Of a stretch of DNA of 64,000 nt, positions 3,795 through 25,130 are shown piece by piece. Made by a program: the position numbers and the translations under genes. The notes under the pieces are model-generated. The model ran no database searches. It was not told where the DNA came from and worked only from the letters and a program-made list of their open reading frames with translations. The stretch is from Trichococcus pasteurii (GTDB taxonomy: Bacteria; Bacillota; Bacilli; Lactobacillales; Aerococcaceae): the NCBI RefSeq assembly GCF_900112935.1, contig NZ_FONM01000004.1, positions 1 to 64,000 on the forward strand, read 5' to 3'. Within the stretch, counting starts at the first letter, position 1, and each line of letters begins with the position of its first letter.

Positions 3795-5315
3795 TTAAGG
3801 GGTTTGGTCCATCAGCCAATCTTGGGATAAAGAGATTAATTTTGTCCATTTACCTGGCATATTGGGAAGCTTATCCAGCTCAGGAATCAGCACAGGGACC
3901 TTCTTTTCTAAGGCGGAGTGCGGTCTCAAAAAGTTGAAATAGACACAAAATAAGGTCACGAAAGAGACTGATCCCTGGTGGGATCCGAACCCGGTGGTCG
4001 CTCTGTAATTGCCTTTGAAAGTCCGGTTCAACCGTTCGATGATTTGTTTTAATGGGCGGTATTCCGCTGAAACCGGGTCGTTGTTGGTAAGCCCGATTAC
4101 TTGTTTTACATCAAACGGAACGCCGTGTTGGGCATAATAGTGTTGGGCCAAAAGGTAAATGGGATTGCCATCGACTATGAAAGTTAGATCCTCAGGCACA
4201 GTGCCCATCTTTTTGAATACTTCGCGCAATGCGTAAATGGCGGATTCTGTATCCCGATTTGGAGAAACATAACTCGATAAAATGATTTTCTTTACGGCAT
4301 CAAAGAAGAAAAATAAGTAATTCCACCGACCGCTTACTCGAATGTAGGTCTCGTCTCCACAAAATTGGTCTGATAACTCGTAAGGATAGTTCTCCAAGAA
4401 CGGCTTCAGAACAACGGAAGCGCTGGATGCGTAATTGAGAATGGTTTGACCTGTAATTTTAACATTATGTACGTCGTACATAAGTGCCGCTGTTTTCCTG
4501 GCGGAAAGACCATAATTCACATGATAAGTAAGTATCAACCCCAACGTGTAAGGGGAACAATGGATATTGGCCAGCTTGACTTTCGGTTGAATGATCGAGT
4601 CCTTCGAGATGGGCTCAAAAACAATGTTGAATTGGCGGAATAGATAATGCATCTTAAATTGGTGCGGTTGCTTTTCGAATAAGTCTTTTTCTTCGGCTGT
4701 TAGTCCCTGTAGTCTTCTCAAATAATAAGGACAATCCGCTCTTTTACATTTATAGACATCAAATCCGTTGCGGTCCTTCACTTTTTCTAACGGATGCGTA
4801 CAATGCGGGCATTTTAAAATGGCTTCTTTGGAGAAATGATTTTTAGGGCTGAATAAAGCATCGCAAACTTTACAGTTGCATTGGCCTTTGGGGCCATTAT
4901 TGGCGTAGAGGTAGTCCGAGGGAGCGTTGCAGCGTGGGCAGGTTGTATTGAGGTCTAGGTTGATTTTAACGCCATTGCGGCGTTGAATAGGCTGGAGAAC
5001 CTTCCCAGTTTTTTCGAAATGAGTTTGAAGAAGCAGATGATAGTCCAACTTTTCAACTTTTTCGATCAAAGGCAGTTCATCGACTTTGAGTTTCTGGTAA
5101 TTTAAATTATCCGGAGCAATTAACTGAGGCATACGGGAATTTTGCGTCAACAGGATTACTAGCTTCATTAACGCAAGAATAATCATTCGTTGACGCTTGA
5201 TAATATCAACTAAATAGGTTAATAATAAAGGTAGCAACTTGTCATCTTCCTTTCTTTTGGGGAAATAGTGCGGTGTCGTTACCATCACTATTAACCAAAA
5301 ATTGGGGGGTGGCAA
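3795..5315 (-). CDS. DDE transposase with two N-terminal zinc ribbons (IS6-like core)
   Basis: An enzyme of up to 506 residues. It has two Cys-rich modules (CPRCNAPSDYLY...CNCKVC and CPHCTHPLE...CKRADC), then a DDE core: D in CGDETYIRVSGRW, D in FIVDGNPIY, and E in IIERLNRTFKGNYR. A final FLRPHSAL motif resembles IS6/IS240-type transposases. The N-terminus is uncertain because the first 25 residues lack a clear ribosome site. An AAAGGAAG lies about 70 bases in, near a TTG. The frame is open to its end with no frameshift, so the element may be active. The subfamily cannot be named from sequence reading alone. Confidence 0.8.
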   Translation of the reverse strand: MPPPNFWLIVMVTTPHYFPKRKEDDKLLPLLLTYLVDIIKRQRMIILALMKLVILLTQNSRMPQLIAPDNLNYQKLKVDELPLIEKVEKLDYHLLLQTHFEKTGKVLQPIQRRNGVKINLDLNTTCPRCNAPSDYLYANNGPKGQCNCKVCDALFSPKNHFSKEAILKCPHCTHPLEKVKDRNGFDVYKCKRADCPYYLRRLQGLTAEEKDLFEKQPHQFKMHYLFRQFNIVFEPISKDSIIQPKVKLANIHCSPYTLGLILTYHVNYGLSARKTAALMYDVHNVKITGQTILNYASSASVVLKPFLENYPYELSDQFCGDETYIRVSGRWNYLFFFFDAVKKIILSSYVSPNRDTESAIYALREVFKKMGTVPEDLTFIVDGNPIYLLAQHYYAQHGVPFDVKQVIGLTNNDPVSAEYRPLKQIIERLNRTFKGNYRATTGFGSHQGSVSFVTLFCVYFNFLRPHSALEKKVPVLIPELDKLPNMPGKWTKLISLSQDWLMDQTP

Positions 5316-20214: not shown

Positions 20215-21768
20215 ATGGATAAAGCATTAATTTTTATAGCGATGGCCGGCTATATGTCAATCATCATCGGTATCGGTTTTTATTACTACAAGCGATCAAA
20301 CGAAAGCTCCGATAATTTCTTCTTGGGCGGACGCAGTCTGGGCCCTTGGGTCGCCGCAATCAGTGCGGGAGCTTCGGACATGAGCGGTTGGCTCTTGATG
20401 GGACTTCCGGGCGTAGCTTATTGGTCAGGATTGTCCGACGCATTCTGGACAGCGATTGGGTTGGCACTGGGAACAGCGCTGAACTGGATCATCGTCTCGA
20501 AACGGTTGCGTCATTATTCCGAATCAGTAGAAGCAATCACGTTGCCGGAATTCTTCAGCAATCGATTCCATGAGGACAAGCGCGTTATTTTGACGGTATC
20601 GTCGACGTTCATTTTCGTCTTCTTTTCTGTCTATGCAGCTAGCTGTTTTGTAACGGTAGGGAAGCTCTTCGCAACCTTGTTCGAAGTGCCTTACATCCCG
20701 GTTATGATTGCCGGAGCGGTGTTCGTCGTGTTCTACACATTCATCGGCGGATTTTTGGCTGAGAGTGTTTCTGACTTTATGCAGGGCATCATCATGATTG
20801 CGGCTTTGGCTGTTGTTTTGGTCGGAGGCGTCGTGCATGCCGGTGGTCCCGGAGCGGTCATTGATAACCTGAAAGGCATCCCAGGATTTTTGGATTTCTT
20901 CGGTATCGCAACACCGACATTGATTGATGGCGTGCAACAGTCAGATGGCGCGTTGGCTGCCTTTGGACCTGCAGGCAAATATGGACTGATCACGATTGCA
21001 TCAAGCATGGCTTGGGGACTTGGGTACTTCGGTATGCCGCAAGTGCTGTTGCGCTTCATGGCAATCCGTTCGGCCGATGAAATCAAGCAATCACGCCGAA
21101 TCGGCATCATCTGGTCATCGCTTTCATTGACCGCTGCCGTCCTGATCGGTCTGATCGGACGTTCGATGTTCCCGATGGCATTGACGACTGCTTCCACTTC
21201 GGAAACGATCTTTATCGAGATGGCGACTTTATTGTTCCCGCCGCTATTGGCAGGAATCGTCATGTCAGGCATTTTGGCTGCAACAATCAGTTCAGCGGAT
21301 TCTTATCTGCTGATTGCCGCAAGTGCATTTTCAAAAAATATCTACAAAGGCGTTTTGCGCAAGGATGCTTCCGATCAGCAAGTCATGGCGATGACGCGGA
21401 TGATTTTGATCGTTTTGGCGATTCTGGGCATCATCATCGCTTTGGATGAGAACTCCGTCATCTTCACGATCGTATCCTTTGCGTGGGCGGGCTTCGGTGC
21501 GACCTTCGGACCATTGATGCTGTTCTCCTTGTTCTGGGAAAAAACGACACGTCAAGGCGCTATCGCCGGCATGTTGACAGGCGGAATCGCTGTGTTCGTG
21601 TGGAAACTTCTGATCAAACCGATCGGCGGCGTATTCGGCATCTACGAACTTTTGCCGGCATTCATCCTTTCCTGCGTGGCAATCGTGATTTTCTCCCTAA
21701 TCGGTGAAAAACCGTCCGCTGCGATGGAAGAGGAATTCGAAATGGTCAAAAGCCAGTCGAAAGCCTAA
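20215..21768 (+). CDS. putP: Sodium/proline symporter
   Basis: A 517-residue sodium:solute symporter (SSS family) with about 13 membrane segments. The first loop FFLGGRSLGPWVAAISAGAS and DMSGWLLMGLPG are the PutP-specific signature carrying sodium- and proline-site residues. AITLPEFFSNRF and the C-terminal extension also fit PutP. GGAGGT precedes the ATG. It is monocistronic with its own promoter and terminator. No proline catabolic genes are adjacent, so the role may be uptake for osmoprotection or anabolism. Confidence 0.92.
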   Translation: MDKALIFIAMAGYMSIIIGIGFYYYKRSNESSDNFFLGGRSLGPWVAAISAGASDMSGWLLMGLPGVAYWSGLSDAFWTAIGLALGTALNWIIVSKRLRHYSESVEAITLPEFFSNRFHEDKRVILTVSSTFIFVFFSVYAASCFVTVGKLFATLFEVPYIPVMIAGAVFVVFYTFIGGFLAESVSDFMQGIIMIAALAVVLVGGVVHAGGPGAVIDNLKGIPGFLDFFGIATPTLIDGVQQSDGALAAFGPAGKYGLITIASSMAWGLGYFGMPQVLLRFMAIRSADEIKQSRRIGIIWSSLSLTAAVLIGLIGRSMFPMALTTASTSETIFIEMATLLFPPLLAGIVMSGILAATISSADSYLLIAASAFSKNIYKGVLRKDASDQQVMAMTRMILIVLAILGIIIALDENSVIFTIVSFAWAGFGATFGPLMLFSLFWEKTTRQGAIAGMLTGGIAVFVWKLLIKPIGGVFGIYELLPAFILSCVAIVIFSLIGEKPSAAMEEEFEMVKSQSKA

Positions 21769-21787
21769 ATACTGATTTTCAGCTAAT

Positions 21788-23315: not shown

Positions 23316-23344
23316 TTGACATATACGCTATATTTGTATAGAAT
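23316..23344 (+). promoter_or_regulatory. Promoter of the speA leader
   Basis: Perfect TTGACA, a 17-base spacer, then TAGAAT. Predicted transcription starts near 23351, giving about 235 bases of untranslated leader. Confidence 0.8.
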
Positions 23345-23350
23345 TTAGCT

Positions 23351-23556
23351 TGCATAAATTGAATATCTCTTATTAATAGCCGTTGAGACGAGGGGTCGAA
23401 GATACGGTGGCAAACCAATCAATCTAATTATTTTGCAGTACAGATTGATATTGGGTGCCCAACCTGAGCGTAGGATTATCCAAGTCCTATGAGCAATAAG
23501 AGGAAAAGCAGCTGATAGATATCGAAGCTTTCCTTTGGTTGGAGAGCTTTTTTTAT
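23351..23556 (+). ncRNA. Structured leader RNA, candidate riboswitch controlling speA-speB
   Basis: A closing stem, CTCTTATT (23367-23374) with AATAAGAG (23495-23502), encloses a multi-stem domain. One arm, CCAAT-CAATCT, pairs with AGATTG-AT-ATTGG. Another is TAGGA/TCCTA. The conserved-looking single-stranded motifs GGCAAACC and GGGTGCCCAACC flank the first arm. A terminator follows: AAGCTTTCC (23525-23533), GGAGAGCTT (23541-23549), then T-run. The 3' side of the closing stem continues as AGAGGAAAAGC, which could pair with GCTTTCCTTT to form an antiterminator. The GGCAA-CC / GGTGC arrangement and the closing stem resemble SAM-clan riboswitches, but the core does not match canonical SAM-I. Confidence 0.65.
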
Positions 23557-23588
23557 GCCCATTTTTTATATCAAAGGGGGAAATCTAT

Positions 23589-25130
23589 TTGGCTGAAAAG
23601 GTTTTATTCAATTCAGACACTTATTTGGAAGGTCATTCTGATAAAATTACTTACCAAATTTCTAACGTTAAACCAAAAAATATTACACATATCAAAATGC
23701 CGCTTTTTGAAGCGCTTGTTAAATATGCGAAACAGGACGTTACGCCTTTCGATGTCCCTGGACATAAAATGGGTGTGCAGATGACGCCATTTAAAATGGC
23801 AGTCGGTGATATGACGATGCAGATGGATGTCAACTCCATGAAAGAATTGGACTTGTTGAGCCATCCGCAATCCGTCATAAAAGAAGCACAGGAATTGGCT
23901 GCAAAAGCATATAATGCCGATCAGGCCTATTTCTTGGTGAACGGTACGACTGTAGGCATCCAAGCGATGATCATGAGCGTGGTGGGGCCGAACGATACGA
24001 TATTGGTTCCCCGCAACTGCCATAAATCAGTGATGAACGGGTTGATCCTGAGCGGCGCAAAGCCGATCTTCATCCAGCCCGAAATGGATTTAGCCTTCGG
24101 AATTTCTCACGGTATCTCCGTGGAACGCATCATCAAAGGCTTGGATGAAAATCCTAAGGCGAAAGCTCTTTTGGTCACTTATCCGACTTATTTCGGTTCT
24201 TTGAACGATCTGGAAACGATCTGTGATATCGCGCATGAACGCGGTGTCGTTGTCATCGTCGACAGTGCGCACGGAGCGCATCTGCCGTTCATGCCCGGAA
24301 AAATGAAGGATCCTATGAAAGCCGGAGCCGATGCGGTGACTTATTCCATGCACAAAACCGGCGGATCCTTGACGCAGAGTTCCTTGATGGTGATGCAAGG
24401 GGATCGCATTTCCGCAACGAAATTACAAAAAGTGCTGAACATGCTGCAATCGACCAGCGCGAATTACCTGTTGATGAGCTCCATCGATGCTGCACGCAGC
24501 GAACTGGCGATGTACGGCAAAGACCGCTACAAAAAACTGCGCCCGATCGTCAGCGAAGCCATTGAAGCGATCGAGGCATTCGGCGACTATGAAGTGTTGA
24601 AAGCCGACTACATCAAAGATAAATTCGACCAGACTTATGACTGGACCAAAATGGTGATCCGTGTCAACGACATCGGCCTGACGGGCTTCGAAGTCTACAC
24701 GATCATGAAGGAAGAATACGGCATCCAATTGGAGCTGGCTGAAGGCTACGTCGTGATGGCGGTCATCAGCACAGCCGATACACGCGAATCGATCGGGAGA
24801 CTGGTCGATGCCTTGCTGGACGTCCGCAGACGCTACAAAAAAGCAAGCCAACATTTCGATGCGCACGTGATGACTTGCAGCATCAACGAATTGGCCTGCA
24901 GCCCGCGTGATGCCTTCTATGCCGACAATGAAGTGGTCAGCATCGACGACGCAATCGGCCGCATCAGTGCCGACTCGATCATGATCTACCCGCCAGGAAT
25001 TCCGTTGATCATCCCTGGTGAAGTGATCTCCGAAGCGGTCGTGCAGCATTACCACTACTACAATGAAACATTAGGCAATGTCCTGACTGAGGAAAAAATG
25101 CCTCATCAGATCAAAGTCCTGAAAGATTAA
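23589..25130 (+). CDS. speA: Orn/Lys/Arg decarboxylase, probably arginine decarboxylase
   Basis: A PLP-dependent fold-type I decarboxylase of 513 residues. It has FDVPGHKMG (54-62), the VNGTTVGIQAMI cofactor pocket, DSAHGAHLPF with D226 and H229, and the PLP-lysine motif SMHKTGGS with K256. The C-terminal decarboxylase domain ends near IPLIIPGEVI. The SpeA-type assignment (arginine to agmatine) rests on the agmatinase that follows. TTG at 23589 is chosen because AAAGGGGG lies eight bases upstream. An ATG at 23697 matches typical SpeA N-termini but lacks an SD. Expression should depend on the structured leader. Confidence 0.85.
   Translation: MAEKVLFNSDTYLEGHSDKITYQISNVKPKNITHIKMPLFEALVKYAKQDVTPFDVPGHKMGVQMTPFKMAVGDMTMQMDVNSMKELDLLSHPQSVIKEAQELAAKAYNADQAYFLVNGTTVGIQAMIMSVVGPNDTILVPRNCHKSVMNGLILSGAKPIFIQPEMDLAFGISHGISVERIIKGLDENPKAKALLVTYPTYFGSLNDLETICDIAHERGVVVIVDSAHGAHLPFMPGKMKDPMKAGADAVTYSMHKTGGSLTQSSLMVMQGDRISATKLQKVLNMLQSTSANYLLMSSIDAARSELAMYGKDRYKKLRPIVSEAIEAIEAFGDYEVLKADYIKDKFDQTYDWTKMVIRVNDIGLTGFEVYTIMKEEYGIQLELAEGYVVMAVISTADTRESIGRLVDALLDVRRRYKKASQHFDAHVMTCSINELACSPRDAFYADNEVVSIDDAIGRISADSIMIYPPGIPLIIPGEVISEAVVQHYHYYNETLGNVLTEEKMPHQIKVLKD

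Follow-up and report, generated by a model that had tools for sequence, protein, structure and literature searches.

Leader and gene content of the speA-speB locus

The window, by which we mean the whole 64-kb stretch of Trichococcus pasteurii DNA that was analysed, contains a structured leader followed by a gene for a speA-type decarboxylase and by speB (Table 1); Trichococcus belongs to the Carnobacteriaceae within the Lactobacillales. A scan of the window returned both a promoter-like site ahead of the leader and an intrinsic terminator at its end. The promoter site is not significant by itself, since two such sites were found in the stretch and a mean of 2.4 in shuffled sequences, and both of its hexamers are conserved across the aligned Trichococcus leaders except the cut leader of L009. 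The terminator hairpin (-13.6 kcal/mol) was the one example in the stretch, against 0.3 in shuffles, and the antiterminator fold of 23495-23536 was computed at -9.4 kcal/mol. The folding energy of the leader as a whole is modest (z -1.9; 9 of 200 shuffles were equally low). As a preliminary description of this DNA had claimed, the leader follows a near-consensus promoter, is closed by an 8-bp stem, carries conserved motifs on the two sides of a long arm (GGCAAACC at 23409-23416 and GGGTGCC at 23453-23459) and has a 3′ closing strand able to pair with the terminator.

Table 1. Coordinates of the leader elements and genes in the window, and of a spermidine gene pair elsewhere in the same genome
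Feature	Position	Strand	Details and evidence
Promoter, sigma-70 type	23316..23344	+	TTGACA-17-TAGAAT; 11/12 consensus positions; promoter scan
Aptamer, very probably of a spermidine riboswitch (SAM-I variant)	23367..23502	+	RF00162 44.4 bits; 40-sequence alignment A2
P1 5′ strand	23367..23374	+	partner 23495-23502; 8-bp closing stem
J1/2 AATA	23375..23378	+	SAM-I consensus aAGA, its G being U here; RF00162 alignment
P2	23379..23408	+	helix 23379-23383/23404-23408; 3-bp inner helix 23387-23389/23395-23397; loop GAGGG 23390-23394
Candidate pseudoknot	23391-23393 with 23463-23465	+	AGG with CCU; pairing possible
P3	23409..23459	+	23409-23412/23456-23459, 23415-23416/23453-23454, 23418-23425/23442-23449
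P4	23469..23491	+	23469-23474/23486-23491; two-sided changes in 3/6 pairs
P1 3′ strand	23495..23502	+	common to antiterminator
Predicted antiterminator	23499..23536	+	23499-23509 (AGAGGAAAAGC) opposite 23527-23536 (GCTTTCCTTT)
Intrinsic terminator	23524..23554	+	hairpin 23524-23550, T run through 23554
Likely ribosome-binding site	23573..23580	+	AAAGGGGG; from location, 8 bases ahead of TTG start
speA-type Orn/Lys/Arg decarboxylase, 513 aa, TTG start	23589..25130	+	PF01276 and PF03711 above cut-off; operon context
metK-start remnant, first 26 codons of speA, in-frame	23589..23666	+	15/26 residues shared with MetK of G240
speB, agmatinase, 285 aa	25179..26036	+	TIGR01230 291.8 bits, cut-off 174.3
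Carboxyspermidine dehydrogenase and decarboxylase pair	L062:244-2613 (G000:C26, about 450,100-452,500)		

In L009, which its contig coordinates identify as G011, a Trichococcus metagenome bin that has speA and is one of the two incomplete genomes without a variant match (see below), the leader (4600-4830) lacks the promoter and the P1 5′ strand: a stretch resembling the final part of putP (window 21628-21769, 90%) precedes bases that match from window position 23381, inside P2. This is either an assembly error or a real deletion, which would release speA from control.

The NCBIfam decarboxylase matches of the window SpeA all fell far below their cut-offs, and its nearest solved structure, 2x3l, is an Orn/Lys/Arg decarboxylase for which no particular substrate is specified. 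The gene shares an operon with agmatinase and, in relatives, is flanked by metK and speD-speE (see below), which argues that it encodes an arginine decarboxylase rather than the lysine decarboxylase that the name ldcC implies. Elsewhere in the genome (G000:C30:117931-119289; L119) lies a gene for another, distant member of this decarboxylase family, 31% identical, which is a candidate lysine or ornithine decarboxylase; 11 of 13 Trichococcus genomes carry such a gene (29-33%).

The leader contains a divergent SAM-I aptamer

A cmscan search of the whole 64-kb window with 4227 Rfam families gave a single match above cut-off, to the SAM family RF00162 at 23367-23502. The match spans the full model (1-108), and its score of 44.4 bits equals the cut-off of 44.4; an ordinary SAM-I copy elsewhere in the genome scored 78.5 bits. 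The variant leader was found in 11 of the 13 Trichococcus genomes searched, with RF00162 scores of 43.7-45.0 bits (9 above cut-off, 2 below), the two genomes without a match being incomplete (63% and 51%). Ordinary SAM-I riboswitches were present in 12 of the 13 (13 copies, 71.4-87 bits). The one strong relative outside Trichococcus that was scored, L067, reached 39.5 bits, below cut-off. Because the scored variants lie near or below the SAM-I cut-off, annotation will label them SAM riboswitches or miss them, and no family in Rfam 15 outscored SAM-I on the window leader. SAM-IV (RF00634) and the SAM-I/IV variant (RF01725) have related cores; both are absent from the cmscan listing, which retains only the best member of a clan. 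Of the resemblance to the SAM-I/IV clan that had been proposed earlier, it is the one to SAM-I that the match supports.

The aptamer resembles SAM-I (the S box, RF00162) in stems P1 to P4, its kink-turn-like P2, the positions of the pseudoknot and the logic of its terminator. P2, whose inner helix has 3 bp and carries the loop GAGGG, can be aligned to SAM-I, so the earlier statement that the L2/P2 part does not match was mistaken. In the SAM-I crystal structure, SAM is contacted by the conserved J1/2 G and the AA/U internal loop of P3. In the window this G is replaced by U and the internal loop is enlarged, having gained an A in its 5′ strand and a G in its 3′ strand; other forms of the loop occur in relatives. 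Among 40 variants the J1/2 contact column holds U in 39, A in one and G in none, with a G one place earlier in 13. Besides these changes and the score at the cut-off, the window differs from SAM-I in bearing its GAGGG loop on the 3-bp inner P2, and the variant class is reported to be unresponsive to SAM (PMC10853860). GAGACGAGGGGTC and CCTGAG are present in all 40 aptamers, and because the GAGGG loop and CCTGAG are identical in 40/40, the candidate pseudoknot lies beyond a test by covariation.

Eight aptamers (L071-L076, L083 and L084) have a second form of P3 pocket within the class, with GGCCAAAC on the 5′ side and GTGGGCC opposite instead of GGCAAACC. We also considered low-scoring SAM matches from the window's family (L052-L057) as variants and rejected them, since five of the six match RF00162 at 46.5-58.6 bits and four of these five have the J1/2 G; L052 gave no RF00162 match at E 0.05. 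The remaining one, L055:83-182, from another genus, scores 46.5 bits and has C for the J1/2 G and an ordinary P3 loop. In the window's genome, the ordinary SAM-I riboswitch (L001:1501-1611, minus strand) precedes a 110-aa protein (1142-1474) with no Pfam or NCBIfam match, and is perhaps the same site as the T. ilyis control construct called 'conshypo' in PMC10853860; genome G006 has two identical copies of it on different contigs. Nearby, L001:2144-2222 is a 79-base palindrome, matched through its hairpin shape to a microRNA family far below cut-off, that looks like a small inverted-repeat element.

Relatives in a second family support the structure

A covariance model (R1) built from nine Trichococcus aptamers was run over 398 genomes, an even sample of the class under strict filters, and matched five of them; besides the window's genome these were G240, with a strong match, and three with weak ones. 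Over 261 genomes of G240's family, R1 matched 45: in 29 the match was strong, at 83.6-109.5 bits, and in the other 16 it was weak, at 32.9-45.8 bits. The weak matches were left out; the three examined (L068-L070) are ordinary SAM-I riboswitches, scoring 61.7-65.2 bits against RF00162 and having G in J1/2. The match in G693 lies at 679805-679927 on the minus strand, and Salvail et al. list Viridibacillus arvi NZ_LILB01000001.1/679934-679798 (PMC10853860); from these coordinates we infer that G693 is Viridibacillus arvi. Thus at least one of the 29 strong relatives is probably already among the 13 examples given there, and the family of G240 would be that of Viridibacillus (Caryophanaceae in the NCBI taxonomy).

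The 29 strong relatives and the 11 Trichococcus copies were combined in an alignment (A2) of 40 aptamers with 36 distinct rows. In A2, which was fitted to a model of our own and therefore leans towards the structure, 98.0% of pair cells were kept and 15 of 36 pairs had two-sided changes, as had 8/8 pairs of distal P3. The covariation score was 0.382, against which shuffling gave 0.173 and sliding no more than 0.088; none of 500 shuffles reached the pairing, two-sided or covariation values, and 10 reached the count of further pair types. Weak spots were the first P1 pair, non-standard in 7/36 rows, and pair 23412/23456, an A-U in the internal loop of P3, which is non-standard in 9/36 and gapped in 8/36. 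Within Trichococcus covariation was slight (2/39 pairs) because the aptamer is almost invariant there. The 29 strong relatives from one family supply an alignment with real covariation. Comparison of the 40 aptamers shows that the leader structure is real.

The window leader very probably belongs to the published spermidine riboswitch class

Salvail, Balaji, Roth and Breaker (2023; PMC10853860) described a rare group of SAM-I variants whose ligand is spermidine and which do not accept SAM, with 13 examples and with Trichococcus among the named genera. As they report, termination in vitro of their main construct, the T. ilyis ldcC leader, increased with spermidine (T50 about 214 µM) and not with SAM or MTA, an analogue of decarboxylated SAM (dcSAM) had no effect, and a B. 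subtilis reporter dropped upon addition of spermidine. They give a weak affinity for the class, in the hundreds of µM, and used an Oceanobacillus metK copy, not a Trichococcus one, for in-line probing.

We compared the leader of T. ilyis DSM 22150 (L011) with that of the window and found 3 differences in 249 positions over 23340-23588, two of which (23425 and 23442) form one compensated P3 pair (U-A to C-G) while the third (23430) lies in the P3 loop. Compared in this way, through genome L011 (the T. ilyis record in PMC10853860 is another accession) rather than the printed construct, the window RNA appears to be to all intents the RNA assayed by Salvail et al., and the window leader would be expected to behave like the T. 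ilyis leader. With the class as published (PMC10853860) it shares the four-stem SAM-I fold, the changes from SAM-I in J1/2 and the P3 internal loop (features taken from the wording of the figure 1 legend), the polyamine genes downstream and the terminator/antiterminator arrangement of an off switch, and as an RNA it differs from the published account in nothing of substance. The RNA class is therefore already published and the window leader is no new class, which makes the leader itself ordinary for a specialist. The earlier suggestion that putrescine synthesis is under the control of a SAM-clan variant whose ligand may have changed was well founded, given the RF00162 score at the cut-off, the reported response of the class, the speA-speB genes downstream and the assayed T. 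ilyis leader of the same gene (PMC10853860). Of the two signals then considered, the polyamine one holds, as spermidine, and SAM does not, the T. ilyis leader having shown no response to it. Where the window departs from the published account, which describes the SAM-dependent route (SpeD/SpeE) and names the gene ldcC, is in its context of a putative arginine decarboxylase, agmatinase and a probable SAM-independent spermidine route.

Operon order and a probable metK remnant at the start of speA

Polyamine genes follow the riboswitch in all 29 strong relatives outside Trichococcus. The order is riboswitch-metK-speA-speD-speE-speB in 19 loci and riboswitch-metK-speA-speD-speE in 7, with no speB within the stretch, and riboswitch-speA-speB in the 3 of one genus (G590, G591 and G593). 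Gene identities rest on curated models at one locus, L134 (metK, speD, speE and agmatinase above their cut-offs), and on tblastn at the others. By tblastn at E 1e-15, nine Trichococcus speA loci held speA and speB and none of metK, speD or speE. Eight of the nine named loci with a close SpeA bear a Trichococcus label, and the ninth is titled Sedimentibacter sp. SX930; the speA of this last record (L003) is 98% identical to the window's, and the record appears to be mislabelled Trichococcus.

The window SpeA is 56-67% identical to the SpeA of the 29 operons and 41-44% identical to the SpeA of its own family, which is present in 5 of 63 other genomes. We relied on these identities because a SpeA tree leaves the origin unsettled: it was midpoint-rooted, the branch bearing the two further sequences from the window's family is very long (2.9), and support is weak (85/88) for the fork that unites them with Trichococcus. 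The tree left out L113 (shortened to 5 aa) and L111 and L114 (in-frame stops). Transfer and differential loss are both possible origins of the gene.

When the window leader was compared with L067 by blastn, 23352-23663 aligned to the leader and the first metK codons of that locus (71% over 324 columns), the alignment running through speA codon 25; both genes start with TTG. A query of the 36 N-terminal SpeA residues, run against 18 loci, matched the start of metK in all 16 that bear this gene (52-63% identity) and matched no speA, and the Pfam decarboxylase domain begins at SpeA residue 38. The same query gave no match at E 10 in G590, G591 and G593, the short-operon genomes outside Trichococcus, where speA has its own ATG start, so that among the loci compared the fusion is confined to Trichococcus. 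The remnant is retained in the ten Trichococcus sequences compared, with a pN/pS of 0.17 against 0.07 for the rest of speA, from pooled pairs that are not independent. As judged from these ratios it is under purifying selection, weaker than that on the remaining gene, and is apparently kept as coding sequence; because the pairs are not independent, we draw nothing further from it. This is most simply explained by a deletion that began near codon 27 of metK and ended in the first part of speA, after which the fused gene would use the start of metK; speA would thus be the fusion left once metK was deleted from a metK-speA-speD-speE-speB operon. The words chimer-, horizontal, operon and carboxyspermidine do not occur in the main text of PMC10853860, and a literature search for a riboswitch with carboxyspermidine found no paper.

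Operon form agrees with the probable route to spermidine

The pair of carboxyspermidine dehydrogenase and decarboxylase constitutes a SAM-independent route from putrescine to spermidine. We searched for AdoMet decarboxylase (SpeD) in the window's genome and beside nine speA loci; neither it (PF02675) nor spermidine synthase (PF01564) gave a match at E 0.001 in the window's genome. The PF01564 cut-off was reached in none of the 13 Trichococcus genomes, 12 of which gave weak speE-like matches of 11-17 bits. nspC (carboxynorspermidine decarboxylase) was above cut-off in 12 of the 13, the miss being the 51% complete genome. In the window's genome it adjoins a saccharopine-dehydrogenase-like carboxynorspermidine synthase (431 bits, below the strict cut-off of 800), and the dehydrogenase/decarboxylase pair is adjacent in all seven loci compared (L062-L065 and L164-L166). 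From this gene content, Trichococcus would make spermidine from putrescine by carboxyspermidine dehydrogenase and decarboxylase.

We surveyed the routes in 31 riboswitch genomes, namely two of the 11 Trichococcus and the 29 strong relatives. speE was absent in exactly five (G000, G006, G590, G591 and G593), all of which have the short speA-speB operon and nspC above cut-off. Both speE and nspC are present in the seven genomes with a speB-less operon. In the nineteen whose operon is complete, speE is present and nspC does not reach its cut-off. Operon form and spermidine route thus agree without exception in the 31 genomes, which, being related, are not independent cases. The speB-less operons are those of L130-L133, L139, L153 and L156, and no other genome of the second family has both speE and nspC above cut-off.

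Proposed switch and the signal it reads

Taken together, these data make it very likely that the leader is the spermidine riboswitch of Trichococcus, in which an aptamer derived from SAM-I is joined to a transcription terminator and turns putrescine synthesis off. At low spermidine, the P1 3′ strand and the bases that follow would pair with the left half of the terminator to form the antiterminator, RNA polymerase would continue into speA-speB, and arginine would be converted through agmatine to putrescine. When spermidine is abundant, it would bind in the altered former SAM pocket and hold P1 closed, leaving the terminator free to form, and transcription would halt ahead of speA-speB.

We weighed three other readings of the leader. 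A structured leader that lacks ligand-dependent control, for instance a simple attenuator, would fit a folding energy just modestly better than that of shuffles, but has next to no probability given the near-invariant core in Trichococcus, the two-sided pair changes over 36 distinct sequences and the reported response of the assayed T. ilyis leader to spermidine (PMC10853860). That the leader is a divergent but ordinary SAM-I riboswitch, in which SAM binding terminates speA-speB transcription, is slightly less remote and still very improbable. RF00162 is the sole family above cut-off, nine of eleven Trichococcus copies pass it, and the four-stem fold and terminator are SAM-I-like; however, the variant scores 26-43 bits under the ordinary SAM-I copies of the same genus, the J1/2 consensus G is absent from all 40 relatives and the P3 internal loop is altered, and the downstream pathway in Trichococcus appears to be SAM-free. 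SAM is also reported not to trigger the T. ilyis copy (PMC10853860).

A small chance, somewhat greater than for either of these and low all the same, attaches to another ligand in Trichococcus, SAM-derived or polyamine, such as dcSAM, MTA or the route intermediate carboxyspermidine. The genus has the carboxyspermidine route, and that compound is never mentioned in the main text of PMC10853860; yet the same aptamer core occurs in 19 genomes with speE and without nspC above cut-off, where carboxyspermidine would be unexpected. dcSAM, and MTA from spermidine synthesis, require SpeD/SpeE, which were not found here, and MTA and the dcSAM analogue are reported to be without effect (PMC10853860). dcSAM, which the absent J1/2 G had suggested, was dropped because the genome has no SpeD/SpeE match and because of the result with this analogue. 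Spermidine as the signal has a further argument in its favour, which is independent of the assays in PMC10853860: in genomes that no longer have the SAM route, speA-speB keep the riboswitch and the SAM-free route is present, and therefore spermidine, not SAM, is favoured.

The history that we consider probable is one of operon stripping, in which metK-speA-speD-speE-speB lost its SAM-making and SAM-using genes, 26 codons of metK became fused to speA, and the riboswitch was kept in control of putrescine for the carboxyspermidine route. In the second genus, three of the four carriers have the same short operon, there lacking the fusion. What is added to the published class is the wider family, the fused metK start and the pathway swap, and the swap indicates strains suited to testing the ligand. 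If operon stripping is true, the riboswitch has been retained through replacement of the pathway that it served, and this would be natural evidence that the aptamer reads spermidine itself and not SAM flux.
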